Assembly (NCBI GenBank): GCA_002869015.1
Contig: PKTT01000059.1
Coordinates: 1-48,595 of the forward strand
Source of the DNA: Deltaproteobacteria bacterium
Lineage (GTDB): Bacteria > Desulfobacterota > Deferrisomatia > Deferrisomatales > BM512
Direction: 5' to 3'
Length of the DNA: 48,595 bases
The notes under the pieces are model-generated. The model was not told where the DNA came from. It made no database searches and was given only the letters and a program-made list of their open reading frames with translations. Positions 10,475 through 44,425 of this stretch are shown here, piece after piece. Position numbers and translations under genes: made by a program. Each line of letters opens with the position of its first letter. Within the stretch, counting starts at the first letter, position 1.

Positions 10475-10565
10475 TGCTATGCTACGAAAAAGATTTGGAG
10501 GAGTTCGGTATCGCATTACTCTTTGCCCCCCCGGAGAGTAGCGCCGGGCTCCTCCTTTTATTTTA
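10475..10565 (+). ncRNA. Candidate small RNA or terminator hairpin with C7 loop
   Basis: An extended -10 element TGCTATGCT (10475-10483) precedes a hairpin: GGAGGAG (10497-10503) pairs with CTCCTCC (10549-10555), CGG with CCG, GC with GC, and TACTCT (10517-10522) with AGAGTA (10535-10540). The loop is TTGCCCCCCCGG and a T-rich tract follows. This is a terminator-like structure that could be a roughly 75-nt plus-strand RNA, or just the (bidirectional) terminator of the minus-strand response regulator ending at 10566. It shares the 14-mer GCCCCCCCGGAGAG with a second hairpin at 14937. No matching -35 was found. The rest of the gap 10119-10474 is AT-rich with nothing else recognised. Confidence 0.45.
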
Positions 10566-11177
10566 TCAGTGCTCTTCTCTTATCTTCTTAACGAGCTCCA
10601 GCCTGCTTGTAACGCCCAATTTGTTAAAAATTATCCCCAGATGTGAGCGTACCGTATGGAAACTTATGTTCAGGTTGTCACCGATCTCATGGGAATCAGC
10701 CCCTGTGTTGAAGAGCTCTTTGACCACCTCAAGCTGCCTGTCAGTTAGCGAATACCTCTTCGCGAGCATCTCCCAGTTGGGCATAACCTCAGCATTATCT
10801 TCAAAATTATCGAAAACCCGCTCAACGCTCTCAAGGAACTCCTCCACAGTGAAGGGTTTTTTCAGAAAATCCTTAACCCCGAACTTTAGACATTCAATTG
10901 TTATATCAATGGATGCATGTCCTGTGATCACAATTACAGCGGGAGGGTTTTCAGTAGAGAAAATTTCTCTTATGAACTCCATTCCACCCATGCGCGGCAT
11001 TAAAAGGTCCGTCACGACAACTTGGTACTCCTCCTTTTTTAAATGCTCCAGAGCCTCCAGCCCATCTGCGGCGAGCGAAACCTCATAGCCTCTCCCTTCG
11101 GCCGCGCTTGCCATATTACTTGCGATCACCATATCGTCGTCAGCAATGATGATCTTTTTTATGTCGATATTTTTCAC
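10566..11177 (-). CDS. NarL/FixJ-type response regulator (REC + LuxR HTH)
   Basis: A 203-aa transcription factor. The receiver domain has D13-D14-D15 pocket residues, phospho-acceptor Asp57 (VVTDLLMPRMGG), Thr85 (VITGH) and Lys107 (LKKPF). The C-terminal LuxR-type helix-turn-helix (about 140-200) contains SLTDRQLEVVKELFNTGADS and the recognition helix NISFHTVRSHLGIIFNKLGV. FixJ-like order and length are typical. It overlaps the upstream histidine kinase by four bases (ATGA), so the two are translationally coupled partners. A GC-rich hairpin directly downstream may terminate the operon. Confidence 0.92.
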   Translation of the reverse strand: MKNIDIKKIIIADDDMVIASNMASAAEGRGYEVSLAADGLEALEHLKKEEYQVVVTDLLMPRMGGMEFIREIFSTENPPAVIVITGHASIDITIECLKFGVKDFLKKPFTVEEFLESVERVFDNFEDNAEVMPNWEMLAKRYSLTDRQLEVVKELFNTGADSHEIGDNLNISFHTVRSHLGIIFNKLGVTSRLELVKKIREEH

Positions 11178-13687
11178 CTGAAAACGCCCCCAAAAAGAAT
11201 GCTCAATTTTTCCAGGTTGGAGATTGTGACCCCCTCTGGAAATTTTTTATCGTATATTTCATCCTCGGATAGCAGGATTATAAGTATGTCTTTTCGGATA
11301 GACCCGATGATCTCGACGAGAGTTCGAAGGGGAATTTTAACCAAACGCTCATCAATAATCGCATACCTTACCCTGGCTTCGCTGTCTGTATTGATTTTAT
11401 CCAATAGCGCTGATTCATCAGTGACAAGCAAAGGCATTATACCTGGCTTAAGGCACTCCTCGCAGATCTTGCCGGCATAATCCCCCTCTTTAGCAAGCAC
11501 CAGGACAAAAGCAACATGGCTATCAATTTGGGGGTTTTTCTCAGCAGCTCCCTCCCAAATGGGAAAAGTCATCTTAAAAGAGGCTCCGCCACCGCTGTTT
11601 TCAACGCTAATTTCACCGCCGCTGGACTGAACAAAGGCCTTAGTAATGTTTAAGCCAAGGCCGGTCCCTTTACCAGGCTCCTTTGTTGTATAGAAAGGTT
11701 CAAATATGTTTGCCAGCTCTTCCTCAGCTATGCCCCCGCCTTTATCAACGACAATAAAGGAGACACCGGGCACGCCGCCTGACAGCTCCTCCTCCGCAAG
11801 GGAATAGAGGATTTCTCCACCATCCTCCATAGCATCTATTGCATTATCTGAGAGGTTCATAAGCGCTGAGTGCAACATTGAGGGGACTGTAGAGATTTGT
11901 GGCAGCGGACCAGGTATTGCGATTGTGATCCCTATGCTGTCGGGGAGCTTGCGCCTTAAAATAGAAAGGTGCTCCCAGAGAATCTTCTCCGGGTTTATGG
12001 GCGAGGGGTCGGGAAGCACCTGGCGTGCGGAGTCCAGCAGTTGGGAGGTTATCATCTCTCCTCGCTTACATAGAGCTACAACAACACCTTCATTTATCCC
12101 CCCAGTTGATATTATCTTCCCCTTTGCCTGGCGCTCTTTAAAACCTGGAGGCACGCAGGAGAGAATCGCCCCCAGAATATTATTGAATTCATGTGCAACC
12201 CCACCGGCCAATCTGCCAATGACCTCAAAGCTCTTCCTGTTAAGCGCCTCCTTCTCCCGGCTAAGCAGCCTCGCCTGAAGGGCTTTTTGCTCTGTCACAT
12301 CACGTTCAGTGGAAATAACTGCCTGTCTCCCTTTATGCTCCAAAAGCCTTGCGTAAACCTGAACTGGGTATGTTTCACCATTCTTTGCCTCATGTAGGCT
12401 CTCATATTGCAAAAATAGTTTTTCTCCGAGCTCATTTATGCACTTTTTAACTTTCGGAGCTTCTCCCTCTTTGTATATCTCGATATGGCGCATCCTGGAG
12501 AGCTCGTCTGCCGAATAACCAAGGTTGTCGCTTGCAACCTGGTTTGCTGCAATTAACTCTCCGCCCTCCAGATAAAAGAAGAAGATAGCGTCATTGGCTT
12601 TTTCAAAAAGAGCCCTGTGCAGAGTGTCCGATTCGATGAGGCGCTCCTCGGATAAGCGCAGGCGCTGGTATGTAGCTGTAGCCGCTCCAATTATCAGCCA
12701 AACTAAAATGAGCGCGCCAACAGAGAGGGGGAGGATGAAATCACTTTTTGCTTCTATGATTTGAGACGATTTAGCCGCTACGACAACAGTCAGTGTCTCT
12801 TTACCGACTCTAAGTGGAAGAAAAAATCCCTTATGTATGGATTTGTCGCCCATACTCATAAGGTCCGCCATGAAAGCACAGCTGTAACCTTCGGCTGTAA
12901 TGGGGATATCGTTTAAATCCATTTTTAAAGGAAACCGAAGATAATATTCTCCTTCAATCTTGGAAATGAATGGAAATGGGGTATTAAGCCTATCGAAGGA
13001 GGTGGGCATGTCGGAGCGGTAAATTAAGGAGCCCTCCTCGTTTACGAGGTAGGTGGTGAAGGGGGCCCCCAAACCGGGTGTTGATAGGTAGCTCTCTATG
13101 AGGAAATCAAGAAGGTAGGGGACAAACAAAGTCCCAACATATTGTTCGCCTCTATGCATGCTCTTGGAAAATAGCAGCGCTGAGGTTGGCACTATCCTTT
13201 CCACTTCGGGGCTGAACCTCATAAATATTGAGGGGCTTACAGACACATCTTTTTTCTGTTTTGCGCTGTCGTTTAGGTTCTCTCGAAAAATTCCCGATTC
13301 AATTATCTCGTCAATTGAAACCCCCTCATTCTGAAATATCCCATTTTTATTGGTAAAAAAAATAAGGCCTGAGGGGTCCATATACGCAATGCTGAATATT
13401 TCCGGGAAGACTTCCGAGAGCATTGACAAGCGGAATTCCAAGACTCTCTTTATATCCGGGCCATCATCAGTTGGGATTGTAAATGCATGCTCAACGCCAG
13501 AGCGCACTCTGTCAAGGTAGAGCTCAATGTTGTTTACTATACGGCCGGCTACCAGTGAGTGGCGAAAAAGCGCCTCTCTCTCTAAATTTCTCTCAATATG
13601 CGCGTCAAGCCATATACCGGCTCCAGCGAACACGCTGAGAACAAGAAGAGAAAAAAGAAGAAACTGTATAACTAGCTTCTTGCCCAT
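11174..13687 (-). CDS. Membrane-bound PAS sensor histidine kinase with pseudo-receiver tail
   Basis: An 837-aa sensor. A first transmembrane helix is at about 5-26, a periplasmic dCache-like sensing region at about 27-318 and a second helix at 319-340. A PAS domain (about 345-470) is followed by an NtrB-like H-box with His499 (GRLAGGVAHEFNNIL), an N-box NLSDNAIDAM and G-boxes VVDKGGGI and GTGLGLNI. The last 115 residues look like a receiver domain with weak conservation: IIDERL keeps an Asp but no usual Lys was found, so phosphotransfer there is doubtful. It lies between the periplasmic binding protein (4 bases upstream) and the response regulator (4-base overlap). The binding protein may present its ligand to the periplasmic domain. 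Confidence 0.9.
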   Translation of the reverse strand: MGKKLVIQFLLFSLLVLSVFAGAGIWLDAHIERNLEREALFRHSLVAGRIVNNIELYLDRVRSGVEHAFTIPTDDGPDIKRVLEFRLSMLSEVFPEIFSIAYMDPSGLIFFTNKNGIFQNEGVSIDEIIESGIFRENLNDSAKQKKDVSVSPSIFMRFSPEVERIVPTSALLFSKSMHRGEQYVGTLFVPYLLDFLIESYLSTPGLGAPFTTYLVNEEGSLIYRSDMPTSFDRLNTPFPFISKIEGEYYLRFPLKMDLNDIPITAEGYSCAFMADLMSMGDKSIHKGFFLPLRVGKETLTVVVAAKSSQIIEAKSDFILPLSVGALILVWLIIGAATATYQRLRLSEERLIESDTLHRALFEKANDAIFFFYLEGGELIAANQVASDNLGYSADELSRMRHIEIYKEGEAPKVKKCINELGEKLFLQYESLHEAKNGETYPVQVYARLLEHKGRQAVISTERDVTEQKALQARLLSREKEALNRKSFEVIGRLAGGVAHEFNNILGAILSCVPPGFKERQAKGKIISTGGINEGVVVALCKRGEMITSQLLDSARQVLPDPSPINPEKILWEHLSILRRKLPDSIGITIAIPGPLPQISTVPSMLHSALMNLSDNAIDAMEDGGEILYSLAEEELSGGVPGVSFIVVDKGGGIAEEELANIFEPFYTTKEPGKGTGLGLNITKAFVQSSGGEISVENSGGGASFKMTFPIWEGAAEKNPQIDSHVAFVLVLAKEGDYAGKICEECLKPGIMPLLVTDESALLDKINTDSEARVRYAIIDERLVKIPLRTLVEIIGSIRKDILIILLSEDEIYDKKFPEGVTISNLEKLSILFGGVFR

Positions 13688-13691
13688 ATTC

Positions 13692-14720
13692 TCAAGGAAC
13701 CAACGTTGCGCCCATTAAAACGCTTATGGGTATTTTAAGACCCTTCTTCTTTACTACCTTATTATTGATTACTACTTGACCTTTCTCCGGCGAATCGATG
13801 GGTACCTCACCTACTGAGGCGCCTTCCAAAATTTTTCTTCCTTTAACGCCAGCGTTATAAGCTTGGGAATAACCACTAACAGTTATCCCCATCATCAACC
13901 CAGCCTCTATATAAACCTGGTGAAAGCTTACTGTTGGAATATTCAGATTATCCCGCGTCCACTCGACCACCGGCCTGTAGTCGATAATATTTCCCTTAGA
14001 GTCTTTCAATGTTTGCAGGTTATATATTACCGCTGCATTCCCTGATCTATTTATTTTTGAAAGAGTATCTTTATACGCCTCAAAATCGCCGAATTGTGGG
14101 AGATAAATGATCTTTGCGGAAGTATTCCAGTCCATTTTTCCTAAATAATCCAAGACCTTACGAGAGGTCATAGTATCATCGGTGATTATGTATACATTTT
14201 CGACTTCAAGGTCATTAGCCTGACAAATAGCAAACATGAGGTGGAGGGTATCAACGAAAAAATGTCTTTCAAGGACACCTGTGACATTTTTACCTGGATG
14301 CTCACGCTTACCCGTTTCTACCAAGGAGTACTCTTCAGGCTCAGCGTTAAGGCCATAGAAAATAACGGGTATCTCACCTCCCAAAAAGCGGCTTGCTATC
14401 TCCCTTGTTGCGTTATCGTCACCTGTAAAGATGATATCGGGCTCAAAAGCCTCCATTCGAGCAAGGCAATCGCTGACTTTGCGCTCAAGCCAATCCTTTC
14501 CGGTATGCCTTTTAGTATCTAGAAAAAACTCCTTGACCACTATATCCATTCCAGACATAGCATCTCTTATCCCCTCTTGCTGGCGGGCGCTCCAGAAATA
14601 TTCTTTGTGGTAGCTATTAACGAGAAATATTCTCTTGGGTGTGGTCTCCAAAGCGTTTATTGGCGAGGACACGCTGAGGAAAATAGCTAGAATAACGAGA
14701 GCCTTAATCCCTTGGAACAT
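13692..14720 (-). CDS. Periplasmic substrate-binding protein (ABC_sub_bind/PF04392-like), likely sensor partner
   Basis: A 342-aa exported protein with a signal peptide cleaved near residue 24 (SPINALETT). Its fold pattern is that of the TrpX-type ABC_sub_bind family: RIFLVNSYHKEYFWS at the start of the mature chain, FTGDDNATREIASRFL, IPVIFYGLN, then AVIYNLQTLKDSKGN and SYNAG-like C-terminal segments. No permease or ATPase gene is nearby. It starts an operon with a histidine kinase and response regulator, so its job is probably ligand sensing rather than uptake; this is inference. The start is ATG with GGGG about 8 bases upstream. Confidence 0.82.
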   Translation of the reverse strand: MFQGIKALVILAIFLSVSSPINALETTPKRIFLVNSYHKEYFWSARQQEGIRDAMSGMDIVVKEFFLDTKRHTGKDWLERKVSDCLARMEAFEPDIIFTGDDNATREIASRFLGGEIPVIFYGLNAEPEEYSLVETGKREHPGKNVTGVLERHFFVDTLHLMFAICQANDLEVENVYIITDDTMTSRKVLDYLGKMDWNTSAKIIYLPQFGDFEAYKDTLSKINRSGNAAVIYNLQTLKDSKGNIIDYRPVVEWTRDNLNIPTVSFHQVYIEAGLMMGITVSGYSQAYNAGVKGRKILEGASVGEVPIDSPEKGQVVINNKVVKKKGLKIPISVLMGATLVP

Positions 14721-14920
14721 ATTTTAACCCCGAGATATAAAGAAGATGGTTTGAGGGATAATATTTTAATTTATGTCAAGGCGGCAAAAGGAATAAGACA
14801 ATTAGTGTTTTTTATAATCAAAAATTCCAAGTGTCTTGAGAAAATAATTTCACTTAGAGAAAATTTTGCGATTGGATAGCTTGGGCAGGACAGCCCTGGA
14901 AGTATTGAACTTGAAACTTG

Positions 14921-14978
14921 GCTGTGTTGATTGAGAGCCCCCCCGGAGAGCTGCGCAACCTCATAACAGCAACTTTTT
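14921..14978. repeat. Hairpin sharing the 14-mer GCCCCCCCGGAGAG with 10525-10538
   Basis: GCTGT (14921-14925) pairs with ACAGC (14966-14970), GTTG with CAAC, and the exact 14-mer GCCCCCCCGGAGAG lies at 14937-14950 in the same orientation as the copy at 10525. Both copies are followed two bases later by GCGC, and by a closing stem and then T-rich sequence on the plus strand. The pair brackets the binding-protein/kinase/regulator operon. Function unknown; a small RNA, a regulator-bound structure or a transcription terminator are all possible. Confidence 0.5.
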
Positions 14979-14999
14979 ACCACATCAGGCATTAAGAGA

Positions 15000-15025
15000 A
15001 ACCACTCAAATGAGTGGTTTTATTA
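15000..15025. terminator. Bidirectional hairpin terminator
   Basis: A nine-base inverted repeat AACCACTCA/TGAGTGGTT with a two-base spacer is followed by TTTATTAG on the plus strand and preceded by a short A-rich run. It separates the minus-strand sensor operon from the PilZ gene and may end the transcript of the hairpin at 14921-14978. The remainder of 14721-15114 is AT-rich with no gene seen. Confidence 0.6.
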
Positions 15026-15114
15026 GTGTCGGCATTTTTTCTTTGAACGGTCCTCTTTCAGCCCCTATCCTTTAAATATTAATGGGATTTTTATTAAAGC
15101 GAAGGGGAAATAAT

Positions 15115-15501
15115 ATGCCTATCCGGCGCTACCCCAGGATCGCGGTTCGTATTCCGGTTGTATTAGATACTCTGGGCGGCAACAGTACAAACAAAGGCGA
15201 GATAAAGCAGCTTTCACTTGGAGGCTGCCTTATTGAGGTAGACAACTCACTACCTAGGGGCAAAGTTGTCTGGCTTTCATTCAGTCTGGGTGAATTTCAC
15301 ATTAAAACCGCCGCAAAAGCTGAATATCAAAGCGCCAAAGATGGATTGACCTACGTAGGGGCATCATTTGCCGAGTTCACTCCCTTAAATTTTAAAACAA
15401 TAAAGCACTTCATAAATAACCATTTGGCGCTTCACGGATCGATTTTTGAAAACCCTGTGGTCCTTCCAAATGATTCTAAGGACTTCTTGACCCTCTTCTA
15501 A
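15115..15501 (+). CDS. PilZ-domain protein (c-di-GMP binding)
   Basis: A single-domain PilZ protein of 128 aa. The N-terminus has the arginine motif RRYPRIAVRIPV, and the second binding motif is degenerate (QLSLGGCLIEV, where canonical PilZ has D/NxSxxG). The core beta-barrel strands follow, ending in NFKTIKHFINNHL. Such proteins bind c-di-GMP and steer motility, pili or exopolysaccharide. The ATG at 15115 was chosen because GAAGGGGAAA lies 5-14 bases upstream; the in-frame ATG at 15082 has no ribosome site. A diguanylate cyclase that could feed it lies at 44.5 kb. Confidence 0.87.
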   Translation: MPIRRYPRIAVRIPVVLDTLGGNSTNKGEIKQLSLGGCLIEVDNSLPRGKVVWLSFSLGEFHIKTAAKAEYQSAKDGLTYVGASFAEFTPLNFKTIKHFINNHLALHGSIFENPVVLPNDSKDFLTLF

Positions 15502-42001: not shown

Positions 42002-42028
42002 TGTTGTAAATAAAAGTCGGGGGGCTAG

Positions 42029-44425
42029 ATGGTACAACTGGGGGGAATCCTGGCGCTTTGCGCTGGGGTTTTATTTATGCGTTCATTTCCAATGGCGCTG
42101 CTGCTCGCCCTCTCTGCAGCCCTTGTCCTTAACTTCTCACAAAAAACACGTGGGCATCTGCCGACAGTAAATGCCGCCTTTCTACTTCTTCTAACCGCTG
42201 GATATATAGCCAGCATTCCCCTTCCGGTTCAAAACCTGCCTCTTCAGGAGGTATCAAGGGTCTGCGGGAGTGTTGCTGAAGACCCAACAAGTAGGGAGGG
42301 TGGCTATAGTGTCCTTGTAGAGGTGACAGGGAGCGCAAAGCCTCCTCCGCTCTCTCCCTGGGAGGAAGCACGGGGACGAGTGTTGTTGTCAATCGATGGA
42401 TTCCCCGACCCCCGACCCTATAAAGGCGACACAGCCTATTTCAGGAGCAACCTCAGAGCGCCGCAGGGTTTTATAAACCCAGGCGCAGAGTGGTACGAAG
42501 AGTACCTTTGGCGAAAGAGGGTCTTCCGGCGAGCTTTTGCCAGCTTTCCAGGCGAGGTTTTCTTTTCACCTCCGCTAGAGGGCGGCAGCTTCCTTTTAGC
42601 CTTAAGGAATTGCCTTACTGAGGCAATAGTAAATAGCACGGGAAATGAGACAGGTGGCGTATTGGCAGCAATTACAACCGGCGACAAGTCCCGTCTTTCG
42701 CCACAGGTTAAAGAGCTTTTTCGTAATTCTGGAACAGGCCATCTGCTTGCCGTATCCGCTCTGCATCTTGGCATAGTCGCATTTGCTGTGCGCGCTATTT
42801 TCTTCTTTATTTGGGTACGCTTTCCCGGATTGGCGCTCCGTATTCCCGCGGGTGTTGCTGCTCCAATTGCCACCCTGCCATTTATACTTGGCTACCTAGC
42901 CTTGACCGGCTTTCATACCTCAACGATGCGGGCAGCGGTTATGATATCCCTCCTGCTCTTGGCAAATCTTATCTCTCGGCGAGTGTCTTATCCCGCGCTT
43001 CTCGCCTCTGCCGTTTTGATACTTGCTATTCTTTCGCCAATGGTTTTATTGAGCCCTTCGCTTCACCTCTCCGTCGCCGCCATATTAGGTTTATTCTGGG
43101 TTCTCCCGGCCTTTAATCGAAAAAAAGAAGTGCCTGAGACGCCCTTTCCACTGGTGGAATCTACTTTGGCTTTGCTTTTTGGTAGAGGATTAAAATGGTT
43201 CGTAAGGTTAGCCAAAGTAAGCGTCGCCGCATCTATCGCTACATTTCCAATTTCCGCTTACCACTTTGGTGAGGTTAGCTACCTGGGAGTATTTGTAAAT
43301 CCTATAGCAGTACCCGTTATCTGCTTTTTTTCGTTGCCGCTCTCGTTGGCGGGAGCCTCCATATATCCTCTATGGGAGAGCGGGGCTGTCTTTTTTTGGA
43401 AGCTCGCCGGCGGCGGAGCAGCTTTTGTAATTTATTTTGAGCGGCTTTTGGAGGGGTGGGGTATAAGCAAAATTGCCTCCGCGGGTAACATCTCTTTACT
43501 CGCCGGACAGATGCTGGCGGTCTTTCTTATTCCATACATAGCGGGAGTTAGGCGCATTAAGCGCTTGTTGCTCACCATATTGCTTTCGGCAGGTATGATT
43601 GCCTGGGGTATCTTTGGCGAGTCCATCCTTATAAATTTTAGTGATGAGGCCAGCTTATATGCTTTGGACGTAGGAAGGGGGCAGTCGGTTTTGCTGCAAC
43701 TGCCTTCAGAGGGTTTTGCGCCGCCTTTTTGGGTCTTGGTTGATGGCGGTGGTATACCTGCGACTGATTTTGATTTAGGTGAGCTGGTCGTTTCACCGGC
43801 GCTGGACGCGTTGGGGTGTAAGGCTTTGGAGATAGTTGTTTCAACGCACCCACATCCCGACCATCTGCTTGGATTAACATCTGTCGTTAAAAATTTCAGA
43901 CCCAAAAGGCTTTTTCTCCCCCAGCTGTTCAAGGGGGACCAGCGATATGAAGCGCTTTTGGTCGCAGCTGATAAAGCTGGTACGTCGGTAGAGTGGCGGG
44001 CTCCCAATGAGGTTGTCGAAAATTACAATTGGGGAACAATGAAGACTTTTGGTGGAGAAGGGCCGGGAGAAAATGACAGCTCATTAGCTGTTTTCTTTGA
44101 GGTCGGAGAGAGCAGGGTACTAATTCCAGGCGATTTGGAGATACCGGGGCAATCCTCTCTTCTGAGGCGAGGACTAGTCACCCCCGTCGATATTATGGTT
44201 GCGCCGCACCATGGCTCAGCGGATGCAGTTGAGCCCGGTTTTTTCAAACGCCTTTCACCAGGGCTAATCATCTCCTCATCGGGTGCCGGTACCGGGCTGC
44301 CCTCAGAGGCGCTACGCAGGGTTTCCGAGTCTGCTGGGTCAAGGTTGGTGACGACGGCTGAATCGGGAGCCGTTAAAGTTGAAATCTGCCGGGGAGAAGT
44401 GTATTTTAGCGCCTCCTCTCGTTGA
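42029..44425 (+). CDS. comEC: ComEC/Rec2 family DNA-internalization protein
   Basis: A 798-aa membrane protein. An N-terminal DUF4131/OB-like extracytoplasmic part, the Competence transmembrane domain (GTGHLLAVSALHLGI near 230-245, then several helices) and a C-terminal metallo-beta-lactamase domain (ALDVGRGQSVLLQL near 548-561, and STHPHPDHLLGL near 605-616, later APHHGS). It transports single-stranded DNA in natural competence. The start is ATG with GGGGGG upstream. The window also has type IV pilin genes, another competence component. Confidence 0.93.
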   Translation: MVQLGGILALCAGVLFMRSFPMALLLALSAALVLNFSQKTRGHLPTVNAAFLLLLTAGYIASIPLPVQNLPLQEVSRVCGSVAEDPTSREGGYSVLVEVTGSAKPPPLSPWEEARGRVLLSIDGFPDPRPYKGDTAYFRSNLRAPQGFINPGAEWYEEYLWRKRVFRRAFASFPGEVFFSPPLEGGSFLLALRNCLTEAIVNSTGNETGGVLAAITTGDKSRLSPQVKELFRNSGTGHLLAVSALHLGIVAFAVRAIFFFIWVRFPGLALRIPAGVAAPIATLPFILGYLALTGFHTSTMRAAVMISLLLLANLISRRVSYPALLASAVLILAILSPMVLLSPSLHLSVAAILGLFWVLPAFNRKKEVPETPFPLVESTLALLFGRGLKWFVRLAKVSVAASIATFPISAYHFGEVSYLGVFVNPIAVPVICFFSLPLSLAGASIYPLWESGAVFFWKLAGGGAAFVIYFERLLEGWGISKIASAGNISLLAGQMLAVFLIPYIAGVRRIKRLLLTILLSAGMIAWGIFGESILINFSDEASLYALDVGRGQSVLLQLPSEGFAPPFWVLVDGGGIPATDFDLGELVVSPALDALGCKALEIVVSTHPHPDHLLGLTSVVKNFRPKRLFLPQLFKGDQRYEALLVAADKAGTSVEWRAPNEVVENYNWGTMKTFGGEGPGENDSSLAVFFEVGESRVLIPGDLEIPGQSSLLRRGLVTPVDIMVAPHHGSADAVEPGFFKRLSPGLIISSSGAGTGLPSEALRRVSESAGSRLVTTAESGAVKVEICRGEVYFSASSR

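Follow-up and report, generated by a model that had tools for sequence, protein, structure and literature searches.

A 48,595-nucleotide stretch of DNA from a bacterium of the order Deferrisomatales in the phylum Thermodesulfobacteriota (contig PKTT01000059.1 of assembly GCA_002869015.1; the whole stretch is called the window) carries, as judged from its sequence and that of its relatives, one member of a small RNA gene family not described before, which we designate type A. The family appears to be confined to the Deferrisomatales within the range searched, and its members form a single hairpin capped by an almost invariant loop of six cytosines (C6). We propose that type A is an order-specific, free-standing small RNA that acts in trans by pairing of the C6 loop with G-tracts, and we put the probability of this whole chain at about one half.

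The type A copy shares with a second place in the window the 14-mer GCCCCCCCGGAGAG, which lies on the + strand at 10525-10538 (site 1, within the type A copy) and at 14937-14950 (site 2). An earlier inspection of this DNA, the sequence-only reading, had reported both occurrences in the same orientation, flanking an operon for a binding protein, a sensor kinase and a response regulator, and had judged two exact copies improbable by chance. A pattern search of the window confirmed the positions and the orientation and found just these two matches when up to two mismatches were allowed, against a mean of 0.31 in shuffled sequence (two were reached in 3 of 100 shuffles). The genome as a whole (2.53 Mb, 67 contigs) contains four exact copies and none of a reversed control pattern; near-matches with one or two mismatches lack the element hairpin and look mostly coding. 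The operon does lie between the sites and is on the - strand, which puts site 1 downstream of the operon and site 2 upstream of it. Each site had also been described as part of a hairpin, with GCGC, a closing stem and T-rich sequence behind the 14-mer. A dinucleotide and then GCGC do follow the 14-mer at both sites, and site 1 folds at -35.1 kcal/mol (z = -5.1 versus shuffles), but local folding at site 2 is no better than in shuffles (z = -0.04 and -0.82), the roughly 20 nucleotides (nt) of family core there fall in a different, unconserved fold, and the stem GCTGT/ACAGC is missing in a sister species (G001).

Three of the four genomic copies of the 14-mer belong to type A elements of ~72-75 nt with 94-99% identity, located in the window, on contig 38 and on contig 41; the fourth, site 2, has just ~20 nt in common with type A (E = 0.026, DNA similarity search). 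Plain DNA similarity, by which the family was originally found, placed the element in 11 of the 11 other genomes of the order among 148 related genomes searched, and in none outside the order. R1, a covariance model built from 15 element copies, recovered it full-length at 75-99 bits in 12 of 12 Deferrisomatales genomes, with one to three copies per genome. Across 383 other genomes of the phylum R1 found no full-length element and gave a best score of 30 bits; the weak matches outside the order that were inspected were chance hits or plain terminators that R1 aligned with its outer stem. When an exact pattern of 22 bases from the apical hairpin was run against one genome for each of ~85,000 species, it retrieved ten stretches, all ten from the order, and a search of viral contigs for the element gave no match. 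Further copies in the genome and in relatives, which the sequence-only reading had set as one half of the test of its proposal, were thus found. At gathering thresholds Rfam recognised no family in the window besides one tRNA and none in nine related loci, and E-value searches around site 1 and the related loci gave nothing above gathering scores, in agreement with the claim that no described RNA family has this motif. Matches to ncrMT1302, snoR130 and Leu_leader, all under the gathering score and inconsistent between members, were rejected. A search of the available literature on regulatory RNA in Deferrisoma found nothing.

The hairpin comprises an outer stem (P1), a short stem (P2) and an apical stem (P3) (Table 1), with the family consensus GGAGGAGUUCGG/CCGGGCUCCUCC for P1, CGC/GCG for P2, (A/G)CUCUUUG/CGGAGAG(U/C) for P3 and CCCCCC for the loop. 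In an alignment of 16 different sequences, standard pairs fill 98.6% of the pair cells. Two-sided changes affect six pairs; slid controls give 0-1 and shuffling 1.8 +/- 1.0 (0 of 500 as high). The covariation score is 0.180 versus 0.095 +/- 0.012. The alignment was fitted to R1, by which the structure is somewhat favoured. Changes in the outer stem are also visible in raw MAFFT alignments, for example GGAGGAG to GGGGGAG with CTCCTCC to CTCCCCC. Of the three helices P2 is the weakest. Most variation falls in P1, the tail, the bulge and the P2-P3 spacer; P3 and the loop are almost invariant, and the only exception to the C6 loop is a copy one C shorter. The U-G pairs of P3 and P1 form on the + strand alone, which indicates that the + strand is the one transcribed, and the T tract on the + side agrees with this orientation. 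The short RNA with a C loop that had been suggested for site 1 is borne out by sequence evidence, with a loop of six cytosines and a seventh closing the stem.

Signals for independent transcription accompany the hairpin. The extended -10 noticed earlier near site 1 was recovered (Table 1) and is preceded, at a spacing of 17, by a weak -35, ATTCCA. An exact TTGACA occurs 44-60 nt 5' of the hairpin in 16 of 18 copies, with an expectation of 0.5% per copy; the exceptions, the copy in the window and its ortholog, both have the extended -10 TGCTATnCT. Where the element precedes amt, -10 boxes such as CATAGT are found at a spacing of 17. A T tract (at least six T in ten) follows the hairpin in 16 of 18 copies, and in the other two a separate terminator hairpin lies directly behind. 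Transcription is expected to start near 10490, and from the positions of promoter and terminator the RNA is expected to be about 75 nt long in the window and roughly 85-105 nt in relatives. By sequence, type A has a promoter of its own, an intrinsic terminator and a free-standing position, and a free-standing small RNA gene at site 1 is, in our view, very likely. One to three copies at different places, and a hairpin with a T tract, would also be expected of a mobile or repeated palindrome, comparable to repetitive extragenic palindromes or miniature inverted-repeat transposable elements, or of a mere transcription terminator. Such a reading is highly improbable, however, in view of the conserved upstream promoter, the invariant loop, the two-sided stem changes and the low copy number; the copies hold orthologous positions within genera and, at amt-glnD, across families, and at several copies the upstream genes point away, so that there is no transcript to terminate.

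The neighbours of the element differ between families of the order. Outside family f1, that of the window, seven of eight copies lie ~200-300 nt upstream of amt-glnD in the same orientation (families f2, f3 and f4), glnD being named by similarity between loci and by sequence rather than by a family search, and one contig (G005) ending before glnD; the eighth, in G006, is that genome's second copy, which is more diverged and lies away from amt-glnD. In family f1 the element stands apart from the nearest amt homologs; its neighbours are the response regulator of the window, atpE with an AMP-ligase-like gene, and a methyltransferase-like gene. No fixed link exists between the small RNA and the sensor operon, since its other copies have other neighbours. 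The seven genomes with the element before amt-glnD, together with its terminator-like end, might suggest a cis-acting leader of the next gene, such as a riboswitch or attenuator. At the amt loci, however, a sigma-54-type promoter sequence (e.g. TTGGCACCCGCCTTGCT) lies between the element and amt, and the element therefore falls outside the amt leader that this promoter would produce. Furthermore, almost every family f1 copy is followed by a gene on the opposite strand, convergent at the window copy and most others; the element itself closes with a T tract, and the genes around it bear no relation to one another from locus to locus. The co-directional placement within a downstream gene's leader that marks a riboswitch was not found for the family, and the cis-leader reading, already largely refuted, retains scarcely any probability. 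The element-amt interval of loci L114, L115 and L117-L121 contains recurrent ACATTTNTGT-like motifs, possibly sites for an enhancer-binding regulator, together with the sigma-54-type sequence TGGCAC-N5-TTGC before amt-glnD.

In the mechanism that we propose, a sigma-70-type promoter belonging to the element would drive the segment 10490-10564 (+), and the transcript would end at its own hairpin and T tract. The exposed C6 loop would then pair with G-tracts that overlap or adjoin ribosome-binding sites, with the neighbouring UUUG/CGG able to open, and this pairing would repress the translation of several mRNAs, probably assisted by Hfq where it is present. Hfq is encoded in 10 of the 12 genomes of the order. 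Loop pairing has a direct precedent in B11, a 6C RNA of M. abscessus, whose C-rich loops repress a 5' untranslated region with a six-G tract and in which compensatory mutations restore repression (PMC10470900), and another in the C-rich loops with which rhizobial NfeR1 silences ntrB (PMC10746234). The genome has 188 occurrences of six G with an ATG 4-12 nt downstream, versus 110 for the reversed pattern (1.7-fold). Several observations weigh against this mechanism. The G6-ATG excess could be explained by ordinary Shine-Dalgarno sequences, and GGGGGGCAAA, tried as a target signature, was rejected, its excess over the reversed pattern consisting mostly of in-frame Gly-Gly-Lys codons. Pairing by the loop alone also leaves unexplained the near-invariance of the paired apical stem and the retention of GGAGAGCNGCGC, without a pairing partner, in the block at site 2 (type B).

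These last two features would be accounted for by a protein ligand, the main rival to loop pairing. The RNA would then bind or sequester a dedicated protein that recognises the invariant apical hairpin or a linear core, and type B would be a second site near a PilZ gene. Almost the entire apical hairpin, stem as well as loop, is invariant, which is more than a seed requires, and the core is kept in type B outside a hairpin. Type B, on the other hand, lacks the common fold that a hairpin-binding protein would need, and the obvious candidate, CsrA, is missing in all five family f1 genomes that carry the RNA. We therefore regard a protein ligand as unlikely, and a CsrA sponge of the CsrB/RsmY type is ruled out by the same absence. 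CsrA is encoded in 7 of 7 genomes of families f2-f4, which suggests that it was lost in the lineage of the window.

With loop pairing as the preferred mechanism, the best-looking candidate target in the window is a comEC/Rec2-like gene, so labelled from its sequence without a family search, which has the sole G6-ATG leader of a long open reading frame in the window. This gene (42019-44425, +; ATG at 42029) has GGGGGG four bases upstream of the ATG and a second GGGGGG in its first codons. At 11187 (-), GGGGG precedes the GTG start of the response regulator by 9 nt, within the terminal part of the overlapping kinase gene.

Site 2 appears to be of a different nature. Type B contains the 20-nt core GCCCCCCCGGAGAGCNGCGC exactly as in type A, and R1, run on site 2 with filters off, gave no match at E<=10. 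At the same position G001 has TGATTGGGAGCCCCCCCGGAGAGCCGCGCAACC, with 2 substitutions in 33, followed by ATAACAGC, TTTTTACCACATC and a letter-identical terminator, and the surrounding spacer otherwise aligns poorly between the two genomes. Because both species have a promoter-like TTGAAN-16/17-TATNCT, read from the alignment, in the interval from this terminator to the PilZ gene, type B is probably a separate short transcript and not the PilZ leader; a promoter upstream of the block was looked for and no good one was found. Type B was found in one genus only and, as far as a comparison of two species indicates, would be a genus-level transcript distinct from type A. It may present the same seed as type A, or compete for the same partner. 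Exact chance matches to the 20-nt core are estimated at <0.01 in the 12 genomes together (from 8 reversed-control matches with up to two mismatches); near-matches to it in GC-rich genomes lack the element hairpin, look mostly coding and were set aside. One two-mismatch match (L143; G002 contig 29, ~12671) lies between CRISPR-type repeats GTCGCGCCCCGTGCGGGCGCGTGGATTGAAAC and is probably due to chance.

That site 2 is a functionless, decayed partial copy of type A is a minority possibility: it would fit the 20 nt in common, the lack of a common fold and the restriction to one genus, but the block and its downstream terminator have been kept between two species despite a poorly alignable spacer. 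Type B may be a partial copy that later came under constraint, or one that has simply decayed, and two species fit either course. It is also conceivable, though we consider it quite doubtful, that the linear 20-nt signal, not a fixed fold, is the recognised unit of an order-private RNA system, in which a terminator-hairpin small RNA in every genome and an unrelated transcript before the PilZ gene would share a single partner and might connect ammonium supply with cyclic-di-GMP output.

Table 1. Features of the window in the region of sites 1 and 2 (RNA features are predicted from sequence)
Feature	Positions	Strand	Remarks
Extended -10, TGC TATGCT	10475-10483	+	TGCTATnCT kept in sister species G001 while flanks diverge
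Type A small RNA element, model positions 1-72	10494-10564	+	Scored by R1 at 91.9 bits (E 7.8e-29 for the window); the copy belongs to the R1 training set
P1 outer stem, 5' arm GGAGGAGTTCGG	10497-10508	+	Pairs with 10544-10555; 4 pairs with two-sided change; paired cells 99.5%
P2 stem, 5' arm CGC	10512-10514	+	Pairs with 10541-10543; 1 two-sided change, 91.7% of cells paired
P3 apical stem, 5' arm ACTCTTTG	10518-10525	+	Pairs with 10532-10539; almost invariant across the order, two U-G pairs included
C6 apical loop, probable seed	10526-10531	+	Unpaired probability 0.99-1.0
P1 outer stem, 3' arm CCGGGCTCCTCC	10544-10555	+	From fold and alignment
T tract TTTTATTTT	10556-10564	+	8 T in 10; hairpin doubles as intrinsic terminator
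LuxR-type response regulator	10566-11177	-	Operon between the sites
PAS/HATPase sensor kinase	11174-13687	-	Operon between the sites
ABC_sub_bind (ABC-type substrate-binding) protein	13692-14720	-	Operon between the sites
Type B block TGATTGAGAGCCCCCCCGGAGAGCTGCGCAACC	14928-14960	+	Core 14937-14956 common with type A, structure not; two substitutions in sister species
Intrinsic terminator AGAAACCACTCAAATGAGTGGTTTTATT of presumed type B transcript	14997-15025 (ends good to within a few bases)	+	Fold z = -7.8 for 14985-15035; identical in G001
PilZ-domain gene downstream of type B	15115-15501	+	Pfam PilZ 35 bits; G001 ortholog 79% identical

Multi-copy small RNAs with C-rich motifs include the Cuckoo RNAs (CcsR) of Rhodobacter and LhrC of Listeria, which differ from type A in motifs, copy arrangement and hosts. 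The rhizobial alpha-r14/NfeR1 RNAs carry ultraconserved C-rich anti-Shine-Dalgarno loops on sequence-variable stems, and NfeR1 silences the nitrogen regulator ntrB (PMC10746234). Type A resembles NfeR1 in its C-rich loop and in a connection to nitrogen, its commonest neighbour outside family f1 being amt-glnD. NfeR1, however, has three hairpins with CCUCCUCCC, whereas type A has one with CCCCCC, and the CUCCUCC of type A is confined to the 3' arm of P1, where it is paired; type A thus falls outside the alpha-r14/NfeR1 family, which is alphaproteobacterial and to which no sequence relation was recognised. The 6C RNA of Actinobacteria is free-standing, ~100 nt long and has loops of at least six C (PMC4046766, PMC10470900). 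Like it, type A is a small free-standing RNA with a C-rich loop; unlike 6C RNA, which has two C-loop hairpins, it has one, which is also the terminator, and it belongs to a different phylum. The 6C model (RF01066) gave no match at E<=5 around site 1, nor at E<=1 in four related loci. Our best inference, by analogy, is that type A works like 6C RNA yet stands outside the 6C family. An undescribed small RNA with an invariant C-loop hairpin, present in all 12 searched genomes of a little-studied order, constitutes a well-defined new RNA family. If the loop mechanism is correct, type A would be a first regulatory RNA in the Deferrisomatales, and riboregulation by C loops of the 6C type, best known in Actinobacteria, would exist as an unrelated family in Thermodesulfobacteriota.

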